Of a stretch of DNA of 35,793 nt, positions 3,513 to 35,793 are shown in pieces. The notes under the pieces are model-generated. The model made no database searches. It saw only the letters and a list, made by a program, of their open reading frames with translations, and had not been told where the DNA came from. The stretch comes from Gammaproteobacteria bacterium (GTDB lineage Bacteria; Pseudomonadota; Gammaproteobacteria; SZUA-152): the NCBI GenBank assembly GCA_024276955.1, contig JAJRWE010000107.1, positions 1 through 35,793 of the forward strand, in the 5' to 3' direction. How positions within the stretch are numbered: position 1 is the stretch's first letter; the number at the start of each line of letters is the position of its first letter. The position numbers and the translations under genes are program-made.

Positions 3513-3586
3513 TTGTAGGAGCGGACCCTTGGGCCGCGATGGTTTTCCCACCCTTGGCATCGCGGCCCAAGGGTCCACTCCTACAA
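3513..3586. repeat. REP-type palindrome (GTAGGAGCGG family)
   Basis: Two near-perfect arms beginning TTGTAGGAGCGGACCC and ending with the reverse complement enclose a short loop. The GTAGGAGC/GTGGGAGC head is typical of REP sequences mobilised by RAYT (REP-associated tyrosine) transposases. Relatives in this window are at 19499, 24223, 29514, 31031, 32036 and 33601. The rest of 3391-3746 holds no gene. Confidence 0.8.
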
Positions 3587-3680
3587 CACGATACCCCGTA
3601 GCGTGGCTCACCCAGCAGGTGAAGTAGTAAATCGATGTCAATAGCTTCCATATCAATAAGTTAGCATCAGAATGGCGCGG

Positions 3681-3703
3681 TCAACTGAGGATTCTAGGAT
3701 AAT
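3681..3703. mobile_element. Solo right terminal repeat of the MITE family, with flanking ATAAT
   Basis: TCAACTGAGGATTCTAGG at 3681-3698 is the same terminal repeat as the complete MITE at 4353-4447, followed by the AT-rich pentamer ATAAT. No matching left end is visible in the preceding 300 bases, so this is a lone end of an otherwise lost or diverged element. Confidence 0.65.
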
Positions 3704-3746: not shown

Positions 3747-4488
3747 CTATTCGTCCTCCCGCTTTGGCCAGACGACTTCACCCGTGTTGGGATCAAACAC
3801 TTGTTTGGTGCGCTGGATCATTGGTGGGCGTGGGCCGGTGTAGCGTGATGCGGGCATGCGGTAGCGGGTCTGGCTGTCGGATTTGTTGCCAGACGTGGCC
3901 GGCATGACGACGATCAGATAACCGGCCTTGTGCAGGTAATTGATATAGTTTTTGGCATCGGCGTGATTGATGATGACGTCGTCGGTGCTGGCATGAGAGG
4001 CGAGCTCTTTGGCCGAGAAGTCGCGCAGGATGCGCATGGCATGCCACATGTTTTCTCGGCCAAGACCCCGAGTGATACATTTTCCACCACGTGTGACACG
4101 TGGTGCGTCCACGCCGATGTCGTTGATCAGCTGCCAGCGGTTAGCGACAAATCTATAGTCGACCTTTGCGCGGTGGTGATGCTTTGCGCGCTTTAGGTAG
4201 CCGGCCTTGGTAAGTCCAAGGATGTAGATCTTGATGCTGTCGTGGCTGATGAGGGTTTTGTCCTCGATCTCGGAGATGCTGAATTCGCGCAGGTCTCGGA
4301 TGGCAGACCAAATGGCATCGCGATGGGTGGCATGGCCGTGACGGTGTTTAATCCTAGAATCCTCAGTTGAACGACAGTGCAATTAAGAATTTCAATAGTT
4401 TCATGATGTTATTACATATCTATAAGCGATCAACTGCGGATTCTAGGTTAATGCCAATGGGCTGACATTTTGTTTTTTTCGCGGCCAT
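3747..4488 (-). pseudogene. Mu-like phage winged-helix-type protein gene, interrupted by a MITE
   Basis: The 3' part encodes two similar helical repeats (AIWSAIRDLREFS...GYLKRA and NMWHAMRILRDFS...GYLIVV) that resemble paired winged-helix DNA-binding units, followed by a proline-rich tail. I do not recognise a named family; genes of this kind lie near the transposition genes of Mu-like phages. The natural start appears to be the ATG at 4488, preceded by AAGAGAA. That frame reads MAAKKTKCQPIG and is then broken by the MITE at 4353-4447. Removing the MITE plus one TTAAT copy (100 bases) joins QPIG to IKHRHGH in frame and gives a 213-codon gene. A TTG at 4382 could still start a shorter product whose first residues come from MITE sequence. 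Confidence 0.75.
4353..4447. mobile_element. 95-bp MITE with 18-bp terminal repeats and TTAAT target duplication
   Basis: The left terminal repeat CCTAGAATCCTCAGTTGA (4353-4370) and the right one TCAACTGCGGATTCTAGG (4430-4447) match in 17 of 18 positions. They are flanked by identical TTAAT pentamers (4348-4352 and 4448-4452). The AT-rich 59-bp interior has no coding capacity. Ends beginning CCTAGA and 5-bp AT-rich target duplications recall the IS1380 family (ISEcp1 ends begin CCTAGATTC), so an IS1380-type transposase acting in trans is a reasonable guess. Related ends occur at 3681, 10228 (decayed) and 35655. Confidence 0.85.
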
Positions 4489-4656
4489 CAGGTTCTCTTT
4501 TGCTATGCTCCGTGCCCCGTCGGCCAGGGCGGCCCCACAGGCTGTGGCGTGTCGAACAGGCCGGGCACATGAATCCCTGATCCCCCTGACCGCTGTCTAA
4601 ATCTCTCCCTCATTACAGGCATTGTCTCTATTCGGTGTCGTGCTACACTTTTTATT
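4489..4656 (-). other. Short non-genic stretch in the phage remnant
   Basis: This leftward region between ner and the interrupted phage gene holds an open frame of 61 codons at 4503-4688 with no recognisable domain. It overlaps the 3' end of ner. In an intact Mu-like phage the transposase genes follow ner, so this is probably the scar of their deletion. Confidence 0.35.
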
Positions 4657-4962
4657 TTAGGTGCGCGTGTTAGGTCCGCATGATCCACTATTGCGCGTAC
4701 GTCTACGGCGGCTATTTGGCTGGCCGTCTGTGTAGCGGCTTGGCCAGATATCTTCAGGCCCTATGCCCATGCATTCGGCAATCATCTGCTCGGCGCGGGG
4801 GTATGGCCTATGCAGGGCATGCTTTGCCATCCAGGCGCTATACCCATGCGCTATGGATAAACGGCGTAATGTCGTGCCGGTCTTGCGGATGCCGGCAACG
4901 ATATCTGCGGGATGCCAGTCTTCAGTGAGCGTGGCCTTTATTGACGGTATGTGCGTACTCAT
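4657..4962 (-). CDS. ner: Ner-like (Nlp family) phage DNA-binding regulator
   Basis: The 101-residue protein carries the Ner/Nlp helix-turn-helix: DWHPADIVAGIRKTG, then TLRRLSIAHGYS and a recognition-helix region ending in CMGIGPEDIWPSRY, followed by a basic tail. In Mu-like phages Ner represses early transcription and the repressor promoter at the switch to the lytic pathway. It is divergent from the repressor gene, as in Mu. I chose the ATG at 4962 because the protein domain begins there and because a near-consensus promoter places the transcript start right at that codon. The frame is open further upstream to 5046, but that part overlaps the promoter. Confidence 0.82.
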   Translation of the reverse strand: MSTHIPSIKATLTEDWHPADIVAGIRKTGTTLRRLSIAHGYSAWMAKHALHRPYPRAEQMIAECMGIGPEDIWPSRYTDGQPNSRRRRTRNSGSCGPNTRT

Positions 4963-4969
4963 GGGGCAA

Positions 4970-4998
4970 AAGATAGACGCTATGCGGTGCCTTGTCAA
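4970..4998 (-). promoter_or_regulatory. Sigma-70 promoter for ner, probably leaderless
   Basis: On the minus strand a consensus -35 box TTGACA (4993-4998) is separated by exactly 17 bases from TATCTT (4970-4975). Transcription would start near 4963, at or next to the ner ATG at 4962, leaving no room for a ribosome site. Confidence 0.65.
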
Positions 4999-5095
4999 CA
5001 CCATAAACGGTGTTCGATGCCGTTCCCTTTTTTTGGTCAGGCGCAACTTATGTAATCATGTGAAATATAAGGATAATTATTAAAAGTGCGACATC

Positions 5096-5638
5096 ATGAC
5101 TGACGACAACGACAAGGGTCACACTTTGATTAATGCAGGTGTGACACTGAATTCAGGTATATCCGATAGACTAAAAAGGGTCAGGAAGGCTGTTGGGGTG
5201 TCACAGAAAGAAATGGATCCATTGTTTGGGCTCGGAAAGCGATCGTGGCAACGCTACGAAAGTGGGAAGAATGTTCCTGGCAGCAAAGTGATTGCCGAAC
5301 TTGCGCAAAGAGGATTTGACGCCAACTGGATCCTGACGGGGAAAGGGGAGATGCAGAGGCCAGACGCCGCCGGGTATGTGCAGAATCAGCCTCCAGGTTA
5401 TGTATTGCGGGATGCAATCGACCCACTGCCCGACATCGAGGCGAAAAATGAGGCCGTATTCTCGCGGCTAAGACAGATAAGCCACACCCTGCAAAAGATG
5501 GAGCACGAAGCCGGCTGGAAGCCACCCGTGTACTGGCACGAGCTGATCAAGACGCTGATGTATGTCCACGGGCTTGATGAGTCGGGTGCGGCAAGGCTTT
5601 TAGATGCCCTTCAATCGCATTTAAACGTGGATGTTTAA
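5096..5638 (+). CDS. Mu-like phage repressor, XRE-type helix-turn-helix
   Basis: The 180-residue protein has an XRE helix-turn-helix at about residues 21-62 (ISDRLKRVRKAVGVSQKEM, KRSWQRYESGK, VIAELAQRGFDANWILTGKG). The phrase ANWILTGKGEM is typical of phage repressors. The C-terminal half is helical and probably mediates oligomerisation; there is no LexA/S24 self-cleavage domain. It is divergent from ner, matching the immunity region of a transposable phage. It may be kept because it silences the remaining early promoter or gives immunity; that is inference. The ATG at 5096 has no clear ribosome site. Confidence 0.85.
   Translation: MTDDNDKGHTLINAGVTLNSGISDRLKRVRKAVGVSQKEMDPLFGLGKRSWQRYESGKNVPGSKVIAELAQRGFDANWILTGKGEMQRPDAAGYVQNQPPGYVLRDAIDPLPDIEAKNEAVFSRLRQISHTLQKMEHEAGWKPPVYWHELIKTLMYVHGLDESGAARLLDALQSHLNVDV
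5118..5145. promoter_or_regulatory. Operator-like inverted repeat inside the start of the repressor gene
   Basis: GTCACAC (5118-5124) and GTGTGAC (5139-5145) form an exact 7-bp inverted repeat, and a related GTGTCAC lies near 5194. The position just inside the repressor gene suggests autoregulation, but this is only a pattern. Confidence 0.3.
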
Positions 5639-10023: not shown

Positions 10024-10254
10024 TATTCAATCGCTGGAGGTTTAATTTCCCGCAGTTCGCCACAAACGCCTACTTTTGGTGCTGCTAACGCCGTCTTCCG
10101 GCATGTTTTTAGCCGGATTCCAGGGGATACCTGATTGCGATATCCACTTCACCGCTTTCTGGCAGTTGCATCCTGGCTTTCAGGTGAATTCGTTGATGAC
10201 CATACACTTAGACTTACCTCGAAGCGGTCAACTGATTAATCTAGGTTTAAGGGT
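10024..10254. other. Non-coding stretch with a decayed MITE end
   Basis: No gene is supported. At 10228-10245 the sequence TCAACTGATTAATCTAGG is a degraded version of the MITE right terminal repeat, followed by AT-rich TTTAA. The TetR remnant begins about ten bases later, so the insertion probably removed its 5' end. CGCCTACTTTTGGTG at about 10068 also occurs near 3466. Confidence 0.4.
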
Positions 10255-35649: not shown

Positions 35650-35793
35650 ATTATCCTAGAATCCTCAGTTGGATGGGGTGAAGTGTGCGTTTGCGGTGAC
35701 GCAGGGCAAGGCGCAATGACGCGGAATAGTTGTTCTATTCCAAGGAGTTGCAACGCAGCCATGCATCACCGCAAGCGTGCAATTCACCCCGTA
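35650..35793. mobile_element. Palindromic MITE-family element running off the right edge
   Basis: CCTAGAATCCTCAGTTG at 35655-35671 is the same terminal repeat as the MITE at 4353, preceded by AT-rich ATTAT. Inside, 35673-35706 and 35759-35793 form imperfect long arms (GGGGTGAA ... TTCACCCC) around a hairpin GGAATAG-TTGTT-CTATTCC at 35723-35741. The right terminal repeat should lie just beyond the window. Confidence 0.7.

Follow-up and report, generated by a model that had tools for sequence, protein, structure and literature searches.

The locus and the inserted element

The window analysed here, i.e., the whole stretch of 35,793 nucleotides, is an entire contig (C25) in the 3.16-Mb assembly of a gammaproteobacterium, which comprises 251 contigs and is 86.5% complete. 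Three genes of a Mu-like remnant lie within it. The first, a regulator on the minus strand, has a main piece (3747..4347) that is open over 199 codons, includes two winged-helix domains in a structure model, matches the PHROG 2030 'transcriptional regulator' family (hmmscan 7.6e-55, with 133 phage records matched) and is 82% identical to the same-genus copies. The second, also on the minus strand (4657..4962), encodes a Ner-like transcriptional repressor (HTH_35, 9.6e-24; PHROG 769, 2.4e-26), and the third, on the plus strand and divergent from Ner (5096..5638), is a phage-repressor-like gene (HTH_19, 6.6e-8; PHROG 2328 and PHROG 4).

The regulator gene is split by a MITE of 95 bp (4353..4447), which has inverted ends of the IS1380 type, lacks a coding gene of its own and is represented by further copies in the genome. 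The left terminal inverted repeat, CCTAGAATCCTCAGTTGAACG (4353..4373, plus strand), and the right one, CCTAGAATCCGCAGTTGATCG (4427..4447, minus strand), match at 17 of 18 positions and are complementary at 19 of 21 (90%) when extended, and the element is flanked by the two copies of a target-site duplication, TTAAT (4348..4352 and 4448..4452). At this length, and with its inverted repeats and target duplication, the element falls within the range of bacterial MITEs (about 30-300 bp). The ends and the perfect duplication, which had been proposed in a sequence-only reading of the window (a 95-bp element with 18-bp ends and a TTAAT duplication), were confirmed, and were compared with 30 simulations of the window under a first-order Markov model of its composition. 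No inverted pair of 18 nt (at most one mismatch, span 60-300) appeared in any of these simulations, whether flanked by a 5-bp repeat or not, and the real window contains exactly one such pair with a 5-bp flanking repeat. A short ORF inside the MITE, MKLLKFLIALSFN, was discarded as too short.

The 5' piece severed from the gene, MAAKKTKCQPIG (4453..4488, minus strand), begins with an ATG at 4488, continues into INLESAVDRL and terminates at a stop codon within the MITE. When the flanks were joined by a script, with the MITE and one copy of the repeat removed, 642 nt were recovered in frame, which correspond to 213 codons and a stop, as the sequence-only reading had anticipated. The good ribosome site that it also described proved less convincing, given that AAAAGAGAACCTG-ATG is only moderate and is weaker than the GGAGGAGAGTCTG-ATG of a phage relative (L196).

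Uninterrupted homologues, for which that reading had proposed a search in related Mu-like phages, were found, and they start like the severed piece, either with MAATKTKRQPV, which the piece itself matches (MAATKTKRQPVSIKQRHGH in L196 and MAATKTKRQPVDNQLRHGY in L197), or with MAATKNKRQPV (MAATKNKRQPVHHKLRHGH in L205). No homologue examined, either in Mu-like phage contigs or in related bacteria, starts in the MITE sequence. The empty target site is preserved in two sister genomes, as AGCATTAAGCG in G003 and AGTATTAAGCA in G005, each with a single ATTAA on the gene strand. In G003 (L202/L213), the ATG frame of the regulator is shifted just past the start, at a run of eight A, and an in-frame GTG lies four codons ahead of the conserved RHRH part; the shift may be genuine or may stem from an error in the assembly.

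MuA and MuB precede the regulator, in that order, in the phage contig L196, and Rhodovulum phage P1 has its regulator after the genes for the Mu transposase and the DNA transposition protein. By its sequence, the split gene can be identified as the PHROG 2030 regulator that follows MuB in Mu-like phages.

Expression of the interrupted regulator

The most likely consequence of the insertion is that the regulator would be silenced through the loss of its start. The remaining piece can be entered through an in-frame TTG inside the MITE (first base at 4382, minus strand), from which a frame of 211 codons leads into the regulator, but no ribosome site was visible before this TTG on inspection and the MITE RNA has a strong hairpin fold (z = -5.2), both of which make silencing more likely. 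Nor was a MITE-borne promoter detected, as no promoter-like site above chance was present in the region.

The alternative that this TTG provides a new start, and thus yields a regulator of 211 residues with a swapped, disordered N-terminus, is unlikely, although it accounts for several observations. Its frame is open into the regulator, and no stop codon has accumulated in the regulator piece. The sister regulators of G005, G001 and G002 appear to start with MSIKHRHGH or MNTKRHHGH, at the insertion point, so that the regulator can probably do without the severed residues; these genes lack the residues, and yet their dN/dS is about 0.17-0.20 among themselves. Moreover, the structure model of the TTG-started form retains two winged-helix units, and its first 15 residues are predicted to be disordered (mean pLDDT 75.5, from only 5 sequences). 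On the other hand, TTG is a weak start that is preceded by no Shine-Dalgarno-like sequence and lies in the region of a stable hairpin, and the absence of a promoter-like site above chance also counts against a new start. In a branch test for relaxed selection following the insertion, the excess of amino-acid changes on the branch of the interrupted regulator (16 to 10, compared with 39 to 38 on the other branches) is not significant (p = 0.37). Silencing is the preferred reading, and given both the absence of the severed residues from some sisters and the 211-codon frame opened by the TTG, some residual expression may persist.

The Mu-like remnant in the chromosome

A repressor, a divergent Ner and a PHROG 2030 regulator belong to the early region of a Mu-like phage, and all three were found in the window. 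No significant match was obtained in the window to MuA or MuB, which in such a region lie between Ner and the regulator, and since both are missing the locus is a remnant rather than a prophage. The attribution of the split gene to a phage in the sequence-only reading therefore holds for its Mu-like origin, but the gene now resides in an inherited remnant without A or B and not in a live phage. The Mu-like phages used for comparison (Rhodovulum phage P1, NC_031059, and Pseudomonas aeruginosa phages such as JBD24) share with the remnant the Ner-like gene, the two-winged-helix regulator of PHROG 2030, which follows MuB in the phages, and the repressor divergent from Ner. They differ from the remnant in that it has lost A, B and the late genes and consists of three genes left in the chromosome of several species.

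The repressor-Ner-regulator cassette (3747-5638 in the window; L213-L216 in the relatives), without A and B, is common to five species of the genus. A rhomboid gene and ilvA flank the three genes in G003, and in G005, which has no rhomboid match, they are flanked by an autotransporter gene and ilvA. The cassette of G002 adjoins the rhomboid gene on a contig stretch that stops short of ilvA, that of G001 occupies a 3.1-kb contig alone, and G004 has the rhomboid gene and ilvA with no cassette. An intact MuA or MuB is absent at the cassettes of G001, G002, G003 and G005, and a MuA relic of 54 residues persists in G005. Two of the cassettes, L215 (G002) and L216 (G001), have the repressor-Ner pair in two tandem copies.

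The synonymous divergence between this genome and G003 is 0.34 for the regulator, 0.22 for the repressor and 0.27 for ilvA, and the similarity of the cassette to ilvA fits descent with the chromosome. The pairwise dN/dS within the genus ranges from 0.17 to 0.33 for the regulator, from 0.13 to 0.44 for the repressor and from 0.5 to 1.1 for Ner. These pairwise rates suggest a shrunken Mu-like prophage in which the repressor and the regulator stayed under selection while Ner decays. A further step, in which the host would have adopted the repressor and the regulator as a control module of its chromosome that selection maintains in several species, with the regulator read here from a start supplied by the MITE, is improbable. 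Among the first ten titles that the literature yielded on domesticated Mu-like remnants, none was a specific match.

The MITE family and its link to IS1380

A DNA search of this genome with the element returned 30 matches, mostly to its ends, and a degenerate pattern of the ends identified 47 of them, compared with none in the reversed control. Six intact elements, with sizes of 95-286 bp, have a perfect 5-bp duplication: one of 95 bp (TTAAT), one of 238 bp (TTGAA), three of 237 bp (TTGAA, TTCAA and ATAAT) and one of 286 bp (ATAAT). The family is thus multicopy and has no transposase gene, as is expected of bacterial MITEs. In an alignment, the 95-bp form corresponds to the 238-bp form minus its middle, retaining 11 nt from one end and 84 nt from the other, and the most similar of its other copies show 79-82% identity over 84 nt. 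A DNA pattern for the left part of the element had no match in a genome-contig collection that may omit records close to this genome.

Other members of the family are also present in the window. A second MITE, of the 237-bp type (3588..3698, minus strand), is truncated, with an exact end, CCTAGAATCCTCAGTTGACCG, at 3678-3698 and the 5' part missing; a palindromic repeat, formed by GTAGGAGCGGACCCTTGGGCCGCGATGG and its inverse (3515-3590), stands where this copy has lost sequence. A third MITE type, which has many copies in the genome, is represented by one end, CCTAGATTAATCAGTTGACCG, at 10225-10245 and upstream, and a matching left end was not found there. The contig itself terminates within a copy of the 237-bp type (35655-35793). 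Among 278 genomes, MITE-type ends are patchy, with 30 in G008, 31 in G023, 17 in G201 and few or none in most. In G201 (C11:2309-4071), two MITE-sized pairs of ends lie about 1.3 kb apart, and a composite unit resembling a cassette could be bounded by the outer ones.

A transposase gene of the PF13701 type was not found in this genome, which is 86.5% complete and the contigs of which often break at repeats, and a profile built from 13 transposases had no match in it either. Given this, the element is classed as a MITE that has IS1380-type ends and not as a member of IS1380. The sequence-only reading had pointed to an IS1380-type transposase with such ends, which was found in the genomes of relatives and not in this one. 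For example, a Legionellales MAG (G073, locus L116) contains an element of 1703 bp with the ends CCTAGAAACCGCAGTT...GGTCAACTGCGGTTTCTAGG, adjoining TTAAT, and a transposase of 519 aa, and the right end of the MITE agrees with that of L116 in 16 of 17 positions. With L116, 80 transposase loci from many phyla were retrieved. An automatic end search of about 70 of these recovered CCTARAAA..GCAGTT-type ends for most and a perfect 5-bp duplication for 28. The sequence CCTAGAAACCGCAGTTGA is an example of the ends in relatives that have a transposase of the DDE_Tnp_1_4/IS1380 type. The ends of the MITE agree with those of L116, L117, L126 and L181 at 15-16 of 17 positions, and the 5-bp AT-rich duplication follows an N-T-N-A-N rule (T in position 2 and A in position 4) in 28 of 28 IS copies and in all six intact local MITEs. 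Two PF13701 loci of same-genus genomes (L066 and L067) were also considered as partners, but their ends are not of the MITE type, and they are not obvious partners.

Two relative transposases tested against PF13701 exceed its cut-off (59 vs 34.7 bits), and the best NCBIfam model for the three tested transposases is NF033539 (IS1380), at 124-137 bits against a cut-off of 180, which suggests that these relatives are a distant IS1380 subgroup. The low NCBIfam scores, together with the lack of a partner transposase in this genome, leave some room for a transposase family other than IS1380 with similar ends (CCTAGAATCC), although such a family is very unlikely, because the MITEs have both the end sequence and the N-T-N-A-N rule in common with the IS1380-type elements, and no pair of ends 1-3 kb apart was recognised to enclose another kind of transposase among the matches listed for the 278 genomes. 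An annotated IS1380 element, from Aliarcobacter, likewise has CC-starting ends (CCC) and a 5-bp duplication (ATAAT). The resemblance to IS1380 put forward in the sequence-only reading for the ends and the 5-bp AT-rich duplication is supported, as the transposases of the relatives carry closely similar ends and the same kind of duplication, and the assignment would now be refined to a distant subgroup.

Many MITE copies lie 100-215 bases from contig ends, including that at 35655 in the window, and many contigs end inside them, which suggests that the assembly is broken by the family itself. That a misassembly of this repeat-rich genome, with its 251 contigs, placed the MITE in the gene is scarcely credible, given that a perfect target duplication, together with an empty site in the sister genomes, is what marks a real insertion, and that an element of only 95 bp, the nearest copies of which are 79-82% identical, can be spanned by a single read.

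Origin of the insertion and its meaning

An IS1380-kind transposase, acting in trans, would have inserted the non-autonomous element of 95 bp, which is an internally deleted form of a MITE of approximately 238 bp, at an AT-rich N-T-N-A-N site, with the duplication of TTAAT. The target is the regulator gene of a Mu-like remnant that has lost A, B and the late genes and is found in several species of the genus, entered 12 codons from its start. The start codon and the first 12 codons are thereby parted from the two winged-helix domains, with the original frame stopping within the MITE, and production of the regulator in useful amounts has most likely ceased. This explanation as a whole, i.e., the in-trans insertion of the MITE into the regulator of the remnant and the probable end of its useful production, is very probable. 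The element, its duplication, the shared locus, the empty site in relatives and the family of the ends were shown by the sequences, and mobilisation in trans and the loss of expression are inferred.

Compared with the IS1380-family elements of the distant subgroup (from Legionellales, Dechloromonas, Accumulibacter, Nitrospira, Polaromonas and others), the MITE shares the CCTA... ends, is alike at 15-16 of 17 end positions in its best relatives and has the same 5-bp AT-rich N-T-N-A-N duplication. It differs in that it measures 95 bp and not about 1.6-1.7 kb, lacks a transposase gene and has no autonomous copy that could be found in its genome. Features of MITEs and other partner families have been described (PMC4133298, PMC11578231). 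One of these elements, MITEPye1, which is related to IS1182 (PMC11578231), is also short and hairpin-forming, with IS-like inverted ends, target duplications and no transposase gene, whereas the MITE described here is related to IS1380-type elements, has many copies in several internal-deletion sizes and sits within a gene. Among the openly licensed papers listed by full-text searches, none was recognisable as an account of an IS1380-derived MITE.

The kinds of element involved (MITEs, IS1380 elements and prophage remnants) are all known, and the insertion is real, well explained and ordinary in kind. It provides a clean case of MITE insertion, the empty site of which is kept in sister species, and it connects a MITE family of patchy distribution with a distant subgroup of IS1380 that has a strict N-T-N-A-N target rule. 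Finally, the three-gene Mu-like remnant, in which the repressor and the regulator appear to have been kept by selection in the genus, raises the question of the use that the host may make of them.
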